The notes under the pieces are model-generated. The model was not told the origin of the DNA and ran no database searches. It was given only the letters and a program-made list of their open reading frames with translations. This document shows, one piece after another, positions 22,958 through 43,239 of a stretch of 64,000 nt of DNA. The position numbers and the translations under genes were made by a program. Numbering within the stretch: position 1 is the stretch's first letter; every line of letters begins with the position of its first letter. Origin of the DNA: Kitasatospora viridis (GTDB lineage Bacteria; Actinomycetota; Actinomycetes; Streptomycetales; Streptomycetaceae); assembly GCF_007829815.1 (NCBI RefSeq), contig NZ_VIWT01000002.1, forward strand, positions 496,001 through 560,000, given 5' to 3'.

Positions 22958-23713
22958 CTAGCGTTCCAGGACGCGGGAGAGGAAGCGCCGGGTCGCCTCG
23001 TGGCGGGGCTCGGTGAGCACCTGTTCCGCGGTGCCCTGTTCGCGGATCACGCCGTCCTGGAGGAAGCAGACCTGGTCGGCGGCGTGCCGGGCGAAGCCCA
23101 TCTCGTGGGTGGCCATCAGGATGGTCAGGCCGCGCTCCTTCAAGTCCGTGACCACGTCCAGCACTTCGCCCACGAGCTCGGGGTCGAGGGCCGAGGTGAT
23201 CTCGTCGAAGAGCAGCACCTGCGGGTCGGTGGCCAGGGCGCGGGCGATCGCGGCGCGCTGCTGCTGGCCGCCGGAGAGCCGGTCCGGGTAGTCCTGCGCC
23301 TTGTCCGCGAGCCCCAGCCGGGCGAGCAGTTCGCGGGCCGCCTCCTCCGCCTGCCGGCGCGGCACCTTCTGCACCTGGCGCGGCGCGAGCGTGATGTTGT
23401 CGAGCACGCTCAGGTGCGGGAAGAGGTTGTACGCCTGGAAGACGATGCCGATCCGCCGACGGGCCAGGTTCGCGTCCAGGCGGGGATCGGTCAGCTCGGT
23501 TCCGCCCAGGTGGACGGTGCCGTCGTCGACCGTGTCCAGCAGGTCGACGCAGCGCAGCAGGGTGGACTTGCCCGAGCCCGATCCGCCGATCAGGCAGACC
23601 ACCTGGTGCTCGGCGACGTCGAGGTCGATCGAGCGCAGGACCAGGCGCGAACCGTACGCCTTGCGCAGGCCGCGGATCCGCAGCAGTGGCTCGTTCAGCA
23701 GTGGCTCGTTCAC
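22958..23713 (-). CDS. polar amino-acid ABC transporter ATPase
   Basis: Protein of 251 residues. Walker A GGSGSGKST near 44, Q-loop VFQAYNLFPH near 90, signature LSGGQQQR near 146, Walker B VLLFDEITSALD near 170, switch His in ATHEMGF. This is the HisP/GlnQ class that energises uptake of polar amino acids. The GTG at 23713 overlaps the permease stop as GTGA. A perfect 15-bp tandem duplication right after the start gives NEPLLNEPLL. Upstream leader peptide and neighbour suggest cystine or another sulphur amino acid as substrate. Confidence 0.9.
   Translation of the reverse strand: MNEPLLNEPLLRIRGLRKAYGSRLVLRSIDLDVAEHQVVCLIGGSGSGKSTLLRCVDLLDTVDDGTVHLGGTELTDPRLDANLARRRIGIVFQAYNLFPHLSVLDNITLAPRQVQKVPRRQAEEAARELLARLGLADKAQDYPDRLSGGQQQRAAIARALATDPQVLLFDEITSALDPELVGEVLDVVTDLKERGLTILMATHEMGFARHAADQVCFLQDGVIREQGTAEQVLTEPRHEATRRFLSRVLER
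23681..23710 (-). repeat. perfect 15-bp tandem duplication at the ATPase gene start
   Basis: Two identical copies of cagcagtggctcgtt (23681-23695 and 23696-23710) add five residues (NEPLL) in frame directly after the start codon. Probably a recent slippage event. Confidence 0.9.
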
Positions 23714-24627
23714 CGTCCGGCCTCCGCCCAGGTGCGCTGCGCCGCGCGGCGCTGCAGTCGGTCGGCGTACCTGGTCAACGGGATGGTCACCGCGATGAAC
23801 AGGGCCGCCGCCCCCAGGTAGGGGGTGTAGTTGAAGTCGTAGTCCGCCTTGATCTGTGCGGCCCGCAGCGCCTCCAGCGGCCCGAGGACGGCCACCAGCG
23901 CGGTGTCCTTCTGCAGCGCGATGAAGTCGTTGAGCAGGGGCGGCAGGACGTTGCGCACCGCCTGCGGGAGGATCACCCGCCGCAGGGTCTGCGACTCGCT
24001 CAGCCCGAGCGCCCGCGCGGCGTTGCGCTGGGCGGGGTGGACCGAGTTGAGGCCGGCCCGCAGCACCTCGCCCACGTAGGCGGTGTAGGAGAGCACCAGC
24101 GCGATGACGCCGAGCACCCAGGGCTGGGAGGGGGTGCCCTGCAACTGGAGCGCCGGCAGGCCGAAGCCGACCAGGAAGACCAGCAGCAGGGTCGGCACCC
24201 CGCGGAACACGTCCACGTACAGGGTCGCGGCCAGGCGCAGCGGCTGCAGTCCGGGCGCGCGGGTGACCCGCACCAGGGCGATCAGCAGGCCCAGGACGAG
24301 GATCAGCACCTCGGCGATCAGGAACATCCGGACGTTGAGCCAGAAGCCGTCCAGGATCGCGGGGAACGTCCTGCGGAACTCCGCACCGTCCAGGAAGCGG
24401 CTGTGCAGCCGCTCCCAGCCGGGCGAGGCGACCACGGCCGCCGCCACCGCCGCCGCGCTGGCCAGGGTGCACAGGGTGGCGATCCACCGGTTGCGCCGCT
24501 GGCGGGTGCGGCGGAACCGCTCCCGCTCGCGTTGCCGCTCGCTGGGCCGGTACTGCTCGGTGGACCGGTACTGCTCGTCCTGCGGGTCGGCCTGCTGATC
24601 CAGCTCGGCCGTGGTCTCGTGCTCCAC
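23710..24627 (-). CDS. polar amino-acid ABC transporter permease
   Basis: Protein of 305 residues. A charged N-terminal extension of ~50 residues (TEQYRPSERQRERERFRRTR) precedes about six membrane helices and the HisM/GlnP EAA-type loop (EVLRAGLNSVHPAQRNAARA, near 190). Single permease, so it probably forms a homodimer. The GTG at 24627 (MEHETTAEL) is the first start after the binding-protein stop 11 bp upstream; the nearby GTA is not a start. Its stop overlaps the ATPase GTG. The long arginine-rich extension is unusual for this family. Confidence 0.88.
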   Translation of the reverse strand: MEHETTAELDQQADPQDEQYRSTEQYRPSERQRERERFRRTRQRRNRWIATLCTLASAAAVAAAVVASPGWERLHSRFLDGAEFRRTFPAILDGFWLNVRMFLIAEVLILVLGLLIALVRVTRAPGLQPLRLAATLYVDVFRGVPTLLLVFLVGFGLPALQLQGTPSQPWVLGVIALVLSYTAYVGEVLRAGLNSVHPAQRNAARALGLSESQTLRRVILPQAVRNVLPPLLNDFIALQKDTALVAVLGPLEALRAAQIKADYDFNYTPYLGAAALFIAVTIPLTRYADRLQRRAAQRTWAEAGR

Positions 24628-24638
24628 TGTGCGATCCG

Positions 24639-25526
24639 TTACGGCTTGAGCTCGGGGGCGTCGGCCGAGGCCGACAGCCACTGGGAGGTGATCTTGTCCA
24701 AGGTGCCGTCGGCCTTGAGCGCGGCGAGTGCCTGGTTGACGCAGGGGGTGAACCCGCTGCCCTTGCCCAGCAGCAGGCCGAACTGCTCCGGCGTGCCGCC
24801 GTCGTAGTTGAACTGGCCCAGGATCTTGCCGCCCTGCACCTGTGCGCCGGCCAGGTAGAACACGGTGGGCAGGTCGGTGACGAGCGCGTCGACCTGGCCG
24901 TTCTGCAGTGCGTTGACCTCGTCGTTGGTGGTGTTGAAGACGCTCGGCTGCTGGCCGGGCTTGATCTCGTCGAGCACCGCCTGGTAGCTGGTGGTGGCGA
25001 CCTGCACGCCGATCTTGGCGCCCTTGAGCTCGGCCAGCGAGGTGGCGCCCGCGTACTTGGACTTGGCCAGCACCAGGACGGCCTGGTTGGCCGTGTAGTA
25101 GCTGGTGGAGAAGTCCACCGTCTTGGCCCGCTCCGGGGTGCTGGAGATCTGGTTGATGTCGAAGTCGAAGGTCTTCGGCCCGGGAGCGTAGGAGCTGTCG
25201 AACGGTTCGACGACCCACTTCACCTGGTTCTGGGCGAAGCCGAGCTTGCCCGCCACCGCATAGGCGACGGCGCTCTCGAAGCCCTTGCCGTCGGACGGGT
25301 CGTTGTTGTCGAACCACGGCGAGTAGGCCGGGGAGTCGGTGGCGACGGTCAGCTGCCCCTGCTGGTGCAGGCTCGGGCTGGTCGCGCAGTTGCCGGAGGT
25401 CGTCGTCGCGGCCGTGGCCGTGCTCTGGGGCTGGGGCGCGCAGGCGGCGGCCGCGAGCACCAGGACTGCGCCCAGCGAGGCGGCGAGGGACGTACGGAAC
25501 GTACGGGACGTACGGGAGAGCGACAT
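24639..25526 (-). CDS. polar amino-acid ABC substrate-binding lipoprotein
   Basis: Protein of 295 residues with signal peptide and lipobox LAAAAC (Cys near 30), then the SBP_bac_3 fold (GQLTVATDSPAYSPWFDNND, ISSTPERAKTVDFSTSYY, LKGAKIGVQVATTS). Periplasm-side, lipid-anchored receptor for the ABC transporter encoded downstream. Start at the ATG at 25526 with AAGGA upstream; an ATG at 25544 is possible. A serine/arginine/threonine repeat from three near-copies of a 9-bp unit follows the start. A Cys-type leader peptide 75 bp upstream points to cystine or related compounds. Confidence 0.88.
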   Translation of the reverse strand: MSLSRTSRTFRTSLAASLGAVLVLAAAACAPQPQSTATAATTTSGNCATSPSLHQQGQLTVATDSPAYSPWFDNNDPSDGKGFESAVAYAVAGKLGFAQNQVKWVVEPFDSSYAPGPKTFDFDINQISSTPERAKTVDFSTSYYTANQAVLVLAKSKYAGATSLAELKGAKIGVQVATTSYQAVLDEIKPGQQPSVFNTTNDEVNALQNGQVDALVTDLPTVFYLAGAQVQGGKILGQFNYDGGTPEQFGLLLGKGSGFTPCVNQALAALKADGTLDKITSQWLSASADAPELKP

Positions 25527-25601
25527 GAGGGGTCCTTGGAACAAGCCGTCCGGAACGGGCGGTGCGAAAGCGAAAGGAAAAGGAATACCGGGGGAGTGCG
25601 C

Positions 25602-26753: not shown

Positions 26754-26787
26754 AATAAAAAACGGACCCCCCGTTGCCGGAGGGTCC
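26754..26787 (-). terminator. intrinsic terminator between leader peptide and SAM-family gene
   Basis: On the minus strand a 9-bp GC stem (GGACCCTCC/GGGGGGTCC, allowing one wobble) with loop GGCAAC is followed by GTTTTTTATT. A canonical T-run is rare in such DNA. It lies 30 bp after the leader stop and 125 bp before the structural ATG, so it must be read through for expression. Confidence 0.85.
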
Positions 26788-26815
26788 GTCGCGTCTTGCG
26801 CGCACACGGCTTCGC

Positions 26816-26881
26816 TTAGCGAAGCGCCTCCGACATTCGGGGCATCATTCGCATCATGGCGAGAGCGGTGGTGTGCTGCAT
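26816..26881 (-). CDS. methionine-rich leader peptide
   Basis: Frame of 21 codons beginning MQHTTALAMMRMMPRM: six Met in 16 residues, five of them in the segment 9-16. The stop codon falls in the loop of a perfect 7-bp hairpin (GCTTCGC/GCGAAGC, 26809-26825), followed by an intrinsic terminator, which is the arrangement of ribosome-mediated attenuation. No ribosome site precedes the ATG, but TATCGT ends about 7 bases before it, suggesting a leaderless message. The inferred signal is charged tRNA-Met. Downstream target is the SAM-hydrolase-family gene. Confidence 0.75.
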   Translation of the reverse strand: MQHTTALAMMRMMPRMSEALR

Positions 26882-26962
26882 GGAGGGGACGATAGCACCG
26901 GAAATGCTCCTCCGATCCACCCTGACCACACTGTGGACAAGGCCGCCCCCGAAATGCCTTCC

Positions 26963-27604
26963 TCAATGCCCTCCCGGCGCGAGCGCGCGCTGGGCGTAGT
27001 CCGGCACGCAGGTCGGGACCTTCCAGTACACCGCCATCCCGAACGGACCCGACGTGGAGCCCGGGGGAACCGACAGCACCAGCGTCGACCCGGGCGGCAT
27101 GGTGCGCGGCGTGATGCGCACCGCGAAGCTGCCGTCGGAGGAGGTCACCAGGCTCTCCCGCAGGATCTCGGGCGGCACCGCACCGCGGTCGGCCGCCGGG
27201 TGCTGGTCCAGGTAGGTCAGCACCGGGTCCGGCACCAGCACGCCGTCGGCCTTCGGGCAGCTGCTGGGCGAACTCTCCTGCACCGCCACGAACGGGATCC
27301 CGCGGGAGGCCAGGTCCTTCTGCAGCCTGGGGATCCCGTCCCGGTTGAAGAGCTTGACCAGGGTCTCGCCGTCGGCCCCCGTGGTGACCGCGTAGGCCGC
27401 CGATCCCGGCGAGGTGTCGTGCCCCAGCACCGGATAGGCGACCAGACCCGCCGTCAGCACGGTCAGAGCGCCTGCGGCGAGCAGCACCCGGGACCGCCGG
27501 GCGCGGGGCGCTCCGGGCGCGGTGGCGGGGACGGGCCGCTCCGCCGCGAGCAGGGCGAGCTGCTCCCCGAGCCGCTCCTGGAACGTGCCGGGCCTGTCGT
27601 TCAT
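26963..27604 (-). CDS. membrane protein, candidate anti-sigma factor
   Basis: Protein of 213 residues with ~37-residue cytoplasmic head, one membrane helix (VLLAAGALTVLTAGLVAYPVL, ~40-60) and an extracellular domain with two cysteines. It starts inside the stop of the ECF sigma gene (ATGA overlap). Single-pass proteins in this position usually act as anti-sigma factors; no zinc-binding HxxxCxxC motif is visible, so the assignment rests on context. A co-regulated membrane protein is the alternative. Confidence 0.6.
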   Translation of the reverse strand: MNDRPGTFQERLGEQLALLAAERPVPATAPGAPRARRSRVLLAAGALTVLTAGLVAYPVLGHDTSPGSAAYAVTTGADGETLVKLFNRDGIPRLQKDLASRGIPFVAVQESSPSSCPKADGVLVPDPVLTYLDQHPAADRGAVPPEILRESLVTSSDGSFAVRITPRTMPPGSTLVLSVPPGSTSGPFGMAVYWKVPTCVPDYAQRALAPGGH

Positions 27605-28203
27605 CGTGCGACCTCCAACTGCGGGACGGGGATGGGGGCTGGGCCGGTGTGCACGGCCCGCAGCAGTCGGCGCGCCCGGTGCAGCCGGACCCGGACGGTG
27701 GCGTGCGTGATGCCCAGCGCCTGGGCGGTCTCCGCCGTGCTCAGCCCGTCCAGCGCCACCAGGTCGAGGACGGCGCGCAGCGGCTCGGAGAGCGCGGCGT
27801 GGCGGTCGGCGAGCGCGCGGACGGCCTGCTGGGCGTCGATCCGCTCCTCCAGGGCGGCGATGTCCTGGTCGTCCAGCAGCCGGCGCCCACTGAGCCGCGC
27901 GACGGCGCCCTGCTCGCGGGTCCGCCCGCGGGCGTGGGCGGCGATCACGTTGCGCGCGATTCCGTACAGCCAGGCGATCGGCGCGCCCCGGTCCGGGCGG
28001 TAGCCGTCGGCGGCCTCCAGAGCGGCGACGAATATGTCCGCCGTCAGATCGGCGGCCAGCTGCGGGTCGGCGACCCGCCGGGTGGTGAAGCCGAGGACGG
28101 CTTCGACGTGGTCCCGGTAGAACTCGCCGAACGCCTCCGGCCCGGCGATCCCGGCCGGAGGATGCCCGCGTTCACGTCCGGTGCGGCGTGCTGGTCCGAG
28201 CAT
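27601..28203 (-). CDS. ECF RNA polymerase sigma factor
   Basis: Protein of 200 residues. Region 2 (EAFGEFYRDHVEAVLGFTTR, DLTADIFVAALEAAD, PIAWLYGIARNVIAAHARG) and region 4 (LDLVALDGLSTAETAQALGI, THATVRVRLHRARRLL) are both clear. Start at the ATG at 28203 with AGGAGG 6 bases upstream; an upstream ATG would add a region with no homology. Coupled by ATGA to the membrane protein gene that follows, which is probably its regulator. Regulon unknown; autoregulation is common in the class. Confidence 0.92.
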   Translation of the reverse strand: MLGPARRTGRERGHPPAGIAGPEAFGEFYRDHVEAVLGFTTRRVADPQLAADLTADIFVAALEAADGYRPDRGAPIAWLYGIARNVIAAHARGRTREQGAVARLSGRRLLDDQDIAALEERIDAQQAVRALADRHAALSEPLRAVLDLVALDGLSTAETAQALGITHATVRVRLHRARRLLRAVHTGPAPIPVPQLEVAR

Positions 28204-28329
28204 GGCGGCCTCCTGTCCCGAAGGACCCCGACCGGGTCCCCTCACCCGGTACTTGGTCGTCGGACGGAGAAGTGTTTCATCCGCTGTCGTTGCACGAGGA
28301 GCCGATTCGACGGGCCCGACCTCTCGCGC

Positions 28330-42976: not shown

Positions 42977-43049
42977 TGGTCTGTAGCTCAATCGGCAGAG
43001 CGTCCGTCTCCAAAGCGGAATGTCGCAGGTTCGAGTCCTGCCAGGCCAG
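42977..43049 (+). tRNA. tRNA-Trp(CCA)
   Basis: 73 bases with all four stems paired: acceptor TGGTCTG/CAGGCCA, D GCTC/GAGC, anticodon TCCGT-CTCCAAA-GCGGA, T GCAGG-TTCGAGT-CCTGC. Anticodon CCA. Discriminator G; no encoded CCA end. Confidence 0.85.
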
Positions 43050-43083
43050 CGAGGTGCGCACAGCATTCGTGTGCGCACGGTAC

Positions 43084-43156
43084 GGCGTCGTACCCCAATG
43101 GTAGAGGGAGCCGGTTCAGGACCGGTCCAGTGTGCGTTCGAATCGCACCGACGCTA
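43084..43156 (+). tRNA. tRNA-Leu(CAG)-like with short variable loop
   Basis: Acceptor GGCGTCG/CGACGCT, anticodon arm GCCGG-TTCAGGA-CCGGT with CAG, T-arm GTGCG-TTCGAAT-CGCAC. D-stem only three pairs. The variable loop is 5 bases, whereas leucine tRNAs in bacteria have a long one, so it is a class I leucine-anticodon tRNA and its charging is uncertain. Confidence 0.7.
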
Positions 43157-43165
43157 CGTCAGCAA

Positions 43166-43239
43166 GGCGCTGTGGCCCAATCGGCAGAGGCGGCGGTCTG
43201 AGGGGCCGCAGGTTGCAGGTTCGAGTCCTGCCAGCGTCA
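43166..43239 (+). tRNA. tRNA-Leu(GAG)-like with short variable loop
   Basis: Acceptor GGCGCTG/CAGCGTC, anticodon arm GCGGT-CTGAGGG-GCCGC with GAG, variable AGGTT, T-arm GCAGG-TTCGAGT-CCTGC. Again class I despite a leucine anticodon. Its 5' part recurs at 35557-35592. T-arm is identical to that of the Trp gene in the array. Confidence 0.7.

Follow-up and report, generated by a model that had tools for sequence, protein, structure and literature searches.

In Actinobacteria, attenuators have been described for trp, trpS and leuS, together with candidates at ilvB, and no conserved RNA regulatory structures were found upstream of the methionine operons of this group, as far as the accessible part of that work goes (PMC1262725). 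The available text of a study on Streptomyces lividans proposes a leader, metL, upstream of metNIQ, for which no clear terminator was identified, and puts the share of leaderless transcripts in this species at 17% (PMC8079986). Given this proposal, a methionine leader in streptomycetes is, as such, no new idea. No methionine leader appears in the portions available to us of a broad terminator survey (PMC2965389) or of PMC8632094. Enzymes of the DUF62 family hydrolyse SAM into methionine and adenosine, a reaction whose need was still described as unknown in the accessible sections of a 2025 paper (PMC12120602). Our literature search, which did not cover most subscription papers and preprints, turned up no description of a DUF62 gene preceded by a methionine attenuator.

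The locus analysed here lies in the window, i.e., the whole stretch of 64,000 nucleotides of Kitasatospora viridis DNA under study. The arrangement occupies 26894-26757 on the minus strand, from a -10 element to a U-run (Table 1). Its leader ORF has 21 codons, starts with the ATG at 26881 and ends with a TAA at 26816; the peptide, MQHTTALAMMRMMPRMSEALR, carries Met at positions 1, 9, 10, 12, 13 and 16, that is, the six Met in the first 16 residues that the original prediction had pointed out. The other elements of that prediction are also present, namely a stop codon that forms the loop of a perfect 7-bp hairpin (GCTTCGC-TAA-GCGAAGC) and, starting 25 nt past the leader stop, a T-run terminator with a 13-bp stem and a loop of 4 (26790-26761). 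The fold of the 127-nt leader beats 200 of 200 dinucleotide shuffles (z -4.97). The pattern ATGATGNNNATGATG occurs once in the 10.09-Mb genome of this strain, at the window leader, compared with three occurrences of a control pattern read backwards. A leaderless start at 26881 had been proposed as well; TATCGT, 7 nt before the ATG, speaks for it, and the start remains inferred from sequence evidence, as none has been mapped. Directly upstream of the leader promoter, at 26963-28245, there is a pair of genes on the same strand: one for an ECF-type sigma factor (27601-28245) and, overlapping its end, one for a 213-aa protein with no match in Pfam (26963-27604), perhaps an anti-sigma factor. Elsewhere in the window, three consecutive tRNA genes lie on the plus strand (42977-43239).

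Table 1. Features of the leader region, the target gene and its neighbours, in window coordinates.
Feature	Position	Strand	Remarks
-10 element TATCGT	26889..26894	(-)	7 nt 5' of leader ATG; implies leaderless leader mRNA
Leader peptide ORF MQHTTALAMMRMMPRMSEALR with TAA stop	26816..26881	(-)	
Putative sensor: Met codons 9, 10, 12, 13 and invariant CGA Arg codon 11	26843..26857	(-)	from alignment and stall folding
Segment 1, GCGAATGATGCCCCGA	26837..26852	(-)	able to pair with segment 2 (protector); 1:2 region -17.1 kcal/mol
Segment 2, TCGGAGGCGCTTCGC	26819..26833	(-)	partners: segment 1, or segment 3 (antiterminator)
Hairpin GCTTCGC-TAA-GCGAAGC	26809..26825	(-)	predicted still folded within antiterminator in stalled state
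Segment 3, terminator 5' arm	26778..26790	(-)	
Segment 4, terminator 3' arm and U-run	26757..26773	(-)	
Target gene, divergent SAM hydroxide adenosyltransferase (DUF62/fluorinase) fold protein, 290 aa	25757..26629	(-)	
Amino-acid-type ABC substrate-binding protein (SBP_bac_3), possible operon gene	24639..25544	(-)	212 nt behind target; co-transcription not shown
ABC permease (BPD_transp_1)	23710..24600	(-)	5' end approximate

The protein encoded behind the leader matches PF20257 (SAM_HAT_C, 4.4e-9) and no SAM_HAT_N domain (PF01887) with E up to 0.001, and a sequence search against solved structures reached only its C-terminal domain. Its AlphaFold2 model (pLDDT 90.2) superimposes on 2zbv_C (Z 19.4, rmsd 4.0, 247 residues aligned) and 2wr8 (Z 18.7, rmsd 3.8, 243 aligned); as judged from this predicted structure, the whole protein has the fold of the SAM hydroxide adenosyltransferases, chlorinases and fluorinases. 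Profile comparison with canonical and intermediate members of the family (probability 99.9%) aligns Ala75 to the Asp of VVDPGVG and Arg151 to the His of TFHGRD. These two residues, which we take to be part of a catalytic Asp-Arg-His triad, are absent from the window protein, and no column in 35 relatives holds His at 90%; the DNFGN motif is retained. Since two canonical catalytic positions are lost, the activity of the window protein is unknown. It belongs to a divergent branch, and the name "SAM hydrolase" is unwarranted without an assay. The prediction of a divergent SAM-hydrolase-family gene with changed motifs is nevertheless borne out by the PF20257 match, the fold match, and Ala75 and Arg151. 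The genome contains no other PF20257 match. There is also an intermediate SAM_HAT subfamily (ADYG..NTAPRKD..QFRSRD..DGYGN; L084-L089, L104 and L105), which has the NxAPR and QFRS motifs in common with the branch of the window protein and shows no Met cluster or leader in its 8 loci. As for the ABC genes, a TTGACA in the 212-nt gap behind the target gene means that they may have a promoter of their own; their relatives are often found nearby in related streptomycete loci.

To what extent the leader accompanies this gene was addressed with a protein-query scan of genome contigs, which yielded 69 loci in Streptomyces, Kitasatospora, Streptacidiphilus, Actinospica, Catellatospora, Jiangella, Kribbella and, unexpectedly, Patescibacteria; the genome searches are samples and do not fully cover either Patescibacteria or Actinomycetota. 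The target gene is present in 8 of 70 genomes of the same genus. Among streptomycete-group loci, 24 of 25 have an upstream ORF with at least three Met within 6 residues, against 0.0 expected by shuffling, and share the MMRMM core; such an ORF is also present in 5 of 6 Jiangella loci (0.03 expected) and in 13 of 25 Patescibacteria loci (0.18 expected), with leaders such as MMMVMMTPAHGG, MMMEMMT and MSMMHMMT in the last group; no Met leader was seen in 10 of these 25. None of the 16 Kribbella loci passed this test (0.0 expected), most of them having a leader with MRM at most after a GTG start, nor did the single Catellatospora locus (0.0 expected), whose leader has MM. The streptomycete-group exception, L038 (Streptomyces sp. 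WAC08241), has a leader one base short and a gene frame of only 114 aa, perhaps an assembly fault; intact counterparts exist in relatives. Left out of all leader counts were L045 and L077, which match only the C-terminal part of the gene and show no leader, and L081/L090, which have many stops in frame; L078 and L063 come from one genome. In the latter pair of excluded loci (both from G115, Patescibacteria), the homologous frame is interrupted in both pieces, by 12 TGA, 1 TAG and 2 TAA in one of them and by 4 TGA in the second; this excess of TGA might reflect TGA recoding in the lineage or a decayed gene.

The invariant core of 23 aligned streptomycete-group leaders (L009, L017 and L124 were left out) is ATGATGCGAATGATGCCCC, and it is invariant in its nucleotides, not in its amino acids alone. 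Thus the conservation of Met codons anticipated by the original prediction holds for the 24 streptomycete-group loci, and terminators are likewise kept among loci; the sixth Met, at codon 16, falls outside the invariant core and cannot be counted as a conserved member of it. A search of 297 genomes of the family with the core pattern gave matches in 17: 14 of these matches are the leader, with the target gene behind every one, and 3 are unrelated and have CGG in place of CGA. All 25 streptomycete-group loci have a TANNNT box 4-9 nt 5' of the leader start (0.8 expected), as do all 15 from other actinomycetes (0.5 expected; including 8 of the 16 from Kribbella) and 19 of 24 from Patescibacteria (4.5 expected); start codons outside the streptomycete group were picked by hand. 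Two loci that fail the Met-cluster test, L052 and L082 (MYM), were added by eye to the sets used for the -10 box, the pairing and the gene tree. In this tree, 14 actinomycete rows group together (93/93), as do most Patescibacteria (24 rows, 98/92), and L083 sits on a very long branch. Leader presence requires at least four changes along it, with states set by hand, Kribbella counted as leader-bearing, no shuffle control and a bootstrap that has not settled. Viral or plasmid carriage was considered and rejected: 18 pattern stretches in viral contigs included no relative, a plasmid search gave no match, and a BFVD fold search returned nothing at E<=0.001.

In the streptomycete consensus, the Met codons together with the invariant CGA make up segment 1, GCGAAUGAUGCCCC, whose partner is segment 2, GGAGGCGCUUCGC; the alternative partner of segment 2 is CCUCCG in the 5' arm of the terminator; that is, codons 3' of the Met cluster pair with the terminator 5' arm. 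Across 32 loci, the leader arm pairs with its own terminator at -18.5 kcal/mol, versus -13.5 when terminators are swapped, and none of 20,000 permutations reaches the mean of the own pairs. Restricting the set to the 24 loci from Patescibacteria gives the same result (0 of 20,000), and 29 of 20,000 permutations do so for 9 canonical-gene loci (see below). For the 8 actinomycete loci alone the figure is 1650 of 20,000, which is weak and unconvincing by itself. At 23 of the 32 loci, no more than 5% of letter-shuffled leader arms pair equally well; the share is higher at the other 9, among them the window (10.4%), and the pairing of L023, L068 and L069 is no better than shuffles. None of 30 base pairs in the streptomycete helices shows a change on both sides, and covariation within streptomycetes had to be abandoned as uninformative, since these nearly invariant helices hardly vary. 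The stem covariation suggested as a check is upheld, with limits: the pairing is locus-specific over the 32 loci, weak in the 8 actinomycete loci, and without covariation inside the streptomycetes. In L082, whose leader is MQTLHLRNKTQKVMYMRGLR, the stretch GGCCTCCGG repeats the terminator 5' arm and does not complement it, possibly indicating a different switching topology.

The position of the pairing also fits a halted ribosome: antiterminator pairing starts at a median of 11 nt past the marked Met cluster (32 loci), roughly where the front of such a ribosome would be, the distances for L079 and L083 reading 6 too short because the mark in both sits 6 nt past the last Met. When the window RNA is folded as far as segment 3, a ribosome with Met codon 10, 12 or 13 in its A site leads to the predicted antiterminator (-28.0 kcal/mol), which keeps the stop hairpin inside it. 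No antiterminator is predicted if the A site holds Met codon 9, Met codon 16 or the stop; nor is one predicted for ribosome-free RNA, in which the protector forms. Whatever the ribosome state, the terminator is the preferred fold of the window RNA at full length; the decision would thus have to fall while the RNA is being transcribed, as it does in classical attenuators. For 21 loci, the mean predicted sequestration of the terminator 5' arm is 0.84 with a ribosome at the last Met, 0.74 with none and 0.36 with a ribosome at the stop; the first and last differ by more than 0.3 in 15 of the 21, and in the window by less (0.83 vs. 0.61 only). The sets of 21 and 32 loci are chosen leader-bearing representatives in which Met clusters and terminators were marked by hand. 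As sequestration occurs without a ribosome in Patescibacteria, the untranslated state would also read through in many of them, which would suit a shortage that stops initiation as well.

Independent evidence for the link to methionine comes from a search for the methionyl-tRNA synthetase family in 116 Patescibacteria genomes, carried out to test for leaders at metG. Six of the 30 loci scanned had an ORF that passes the Met test, and only that of L142 had, by eye, a terminator and a gene behind it, so Met leaders ahead of metG in general were discarded. In L142, the leader MKLGVYMMAMDSA and a terminator are followed by a gene for a canonical SAM hydroxide adenosyltransferase, the 3' end of which shares 4 nt with metG. 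Its product has both domains (PF01887 2.5e-37, PF20257 5.7e-16) and both motifs intact (VVDPGVGSDR and NTFHGRD). A follow-up with this protein in 14 genomes of its order and 233 of its class gave matches in 13 class genomes, and all 8 full-length relatives (E<1e-60) have Met leaders: MKLGVYMMAMDSA, VNVNIVAMSMMMTC, MDKNVVAMGMMMTC, MNKFVTMMQMTSV, MSKLIQTSMMMVMRAG, MTIQSSVMMDMMLAS, MISQTSVMMDMMNAS and, the weakest, MKQTLKTSTMAMVAV. At least three clustered Met are present in 7 of these 8, L179 having only MAM, and each leader has an antiterminator better than 95% of shuffles. metG lies downstream in 4 of the 8, with 4-nt overlaps in L142, L173 and L174 and after one small ORF in L175. L165 is a further Met-led case with a canonical-type gene, and in L068, which belongs to the divergent branch, metG follows 28 nt on. 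One kind of leader thus heads canonical as well as divergent members of a single enzyme family. In Actinomycetota, no Met leader was found at 29 canonical DUF62 loci (the best 30 loci, 134 of 236 genomes having matched; L215 was dropped, as its start motif was not found), nor was one seen at the canonical loci L106-L113 (8 from actinomycetes), L162 and L163. Outside the Patescibacteria class of L142, the leader is thus mostly absent from canonical DUF62 genes.

We regard it as fairly probable that the leader acts as a ribosome-mediated transcription attenuator and that its signal is charged Met-tRNA, a reading with comparative support in which read-through and the response to starvation are inferred. 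The hallmarks of such a device are a short leader in which codons for a single amino acid are clustered, an intrinsic terminator between leader and gene, and a competing antiterminator that is freed by a ribosome halted at the sensor. The first is present, with translation inferred from the start, the promoter spacing and the conservation; so is the second; the third is present too, with weak support for actinomycetes taken alone. The layout of attenuation for methionine put forward originally hence finds comparative support in the Met codons, the terminators and the locus-specific pairing, its effect on expression being an inference. As inferred from the -10 box, transcription would start at the leader ATG or within about 1 base of it. 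With plentiful Met-tRNA, the ribosome would reach the stop and cover segment 2, leaving segments 3 and 4 to form the terminator. If Met-tRNA is scarce, the ribosome would halt at Met codons 10-13 with segment 1 hidden, segment 2 would pair with segment 3 as the latter is synthesized, and the polymerase would enter the gene for the SAM_HAT-fold protein. In the absence of a ribosome, the 1:2 protector would form in the streptomycete leader, and termination is expected. Methionine starvation also affects initiation, and induction may therefore be narrow. On the basis of sequence comparison, Met-tRNA is strongly indicated as the putative signal by the one feature that very different leaders have in common.

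Because DUF62 enzymes split SAM into methionine and adenosine, the circuit would, by inference, return methionine from the SAM pool to translation when methionine runs out. This suggests that cells short of methionine switch on an enzyme able to recover it from their store of methyl donor. In several Patescibacteria the switch would head an operon with methionyl-tRNA synthetase, and it is these metG operons, together with the known DUF62 reaction, that best support methionine recovery as the purpose, which remains an inference. We give even odds to the proposition that Actinomycetota and Patescibacteria share a class of Met-tRNA attenuators by which cells with too little methionine for translation convert SAM back into it and, in some lineages, raise their output of methionyl-tRNA synthetase. 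A possible, if rather doubtful, alternative keeps the attenuator as described and assigns the protein a task other than recovering methionine, such as removal of (R,S)-SAM, lowering of a SAM signal or action on another substrate. The preference of StDUF62 for (R,S)-SAM would agree with this, although the authors, in the available text, doubt a role in removal of the epimer (PMC12120602). The two canonical positions missing from the window protein and the amino-acid-type ABC binding protein and permease next to it could be read in the same way, while control by Met codons and the metG operons point to methionine supply.

Other explanations concern what the leader senses. The invariance of MMRMMP in the 23 aligned streptomycete-group leaders, the proline run that follows the core in many of them and the return of an MMxMM layout in Patescibacteria would also be expected if the nascent MMRMMP-type peptide, or the following prolines, stalled the ribosome upon exposure to an antibiotic, lack of EF-P or a metabolite, e.g., SAM, with the RNA switch operating as before. 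However, the window leader and many others have no proline run, the cluster is free elsewhere (MFMIMGM, MMMMMMRMM, MSMMM, MMQM, MAM) with only Met itself constant, and RNA pairing accounts for the invariant CGA codon, which makes this unlikely. That the conserved stretch is an RNA element, for example, a SAM- or methionine-binding riboswitch, in which the reading frame is incidental, would explain why nucleotides beyond the amino acids are invariant in streptomycetes and would go well with a SAM-related gene family. Nevertheless, Rfam gives no match for the leader at gathering and, with E up to 5, implausible ones only. Both phyla keep the Met codons, a stop close by and a start immediately after the -10 box, while no fold common to them is seen except the pairing of leader and terminator. 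In addition, the extra Met in L017 and L021 corresponds to one entire codon. We consider this reading very improbable, and a riboswitch or T-box of a described class was rejected, as the Rfam matches of the window at gathering are three tRNAs only and nothing plausible lies near the leader. Finally, short ORFs are frequent in this GC-rich sequence, and a Met-rich one could precede a terminator by chance. Recurrence in two phyla together with the gene, the excess of Met clusters, the locus-specific pairing, the spacing of the -10 box and the single occurrence in the genome rule this out for practical purposes, and its remaining likelihood is negligible.

Attenuators exist for many amino acids, and methionine is, to our knowledge, the one amino acid whose shortage affects initiation too, so that a Met attenuator raises a mechanistic question of its own. 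Methionine is missing from the actinobacterial (PMC1262725) and terminator (PMC2965389) surveys, as far as their accessible text goes, save for the tentative metNIQ leader (PMC8079986). If true, the Met-tRNA attenuator would give the DUF62 family a role as an emergency methionine supply, in which methylation is traded for translation, and would point to a function for SAM hydrolases, the need for which had hitherto been unknown according to the available part of PMC12120602. In addition, the leader offers a handle on methionine-responsive genes in uncultured Patescibacteria.

In comparison with known systems, the window leader resembles the classical amino-acid attenuators in its short leader with the sensed codons, protector, antiterminator and intrinsic terminator (PMC1262725, from its accessible portions), and, like it, the classical attenuators of Streptomyces are often leaderless (PMC8079986, likewise). 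It differs from them in that it would sense methionine and in its target, a gene of the SAM_HAT fold and not a biosynthetic enzyme. The metL leader of S. lividans is likewise a leaderless short streptomycete ORF with Met codons that has been assigned to methionine; its peptide, MSTTSDRTPATEATTTPGARCMCRRMCAF, has two internal Met, no resemblance to MMRMM, and precedes a transporter operon, as far as the available text describes it (PMC8079986). The part of PMC8632094 at hand describes uORFC-8-2 upstream of cysS in Rhodobacterales, a synthetase behind a leader rich in the cognate amino acid, for which read-through is proposed when charged tRNA is lacking, as for the Met leader; unlike the latter, it concerns cysteine and no SAM hydrolase. 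With respect to the DUF62 family (PF01887, PF20257; 2wr8, 2zbv, SalL and fluorinase), the window protein has, as modelled, the whole fold including the C-terminal domain, and its branch is without two residues that canonical members possess, Asp in VVDPGVG and His in TFHGRD. Canonical DUF62 genes with intact motifs stand behind the same kind of leader in Patescibacteria.
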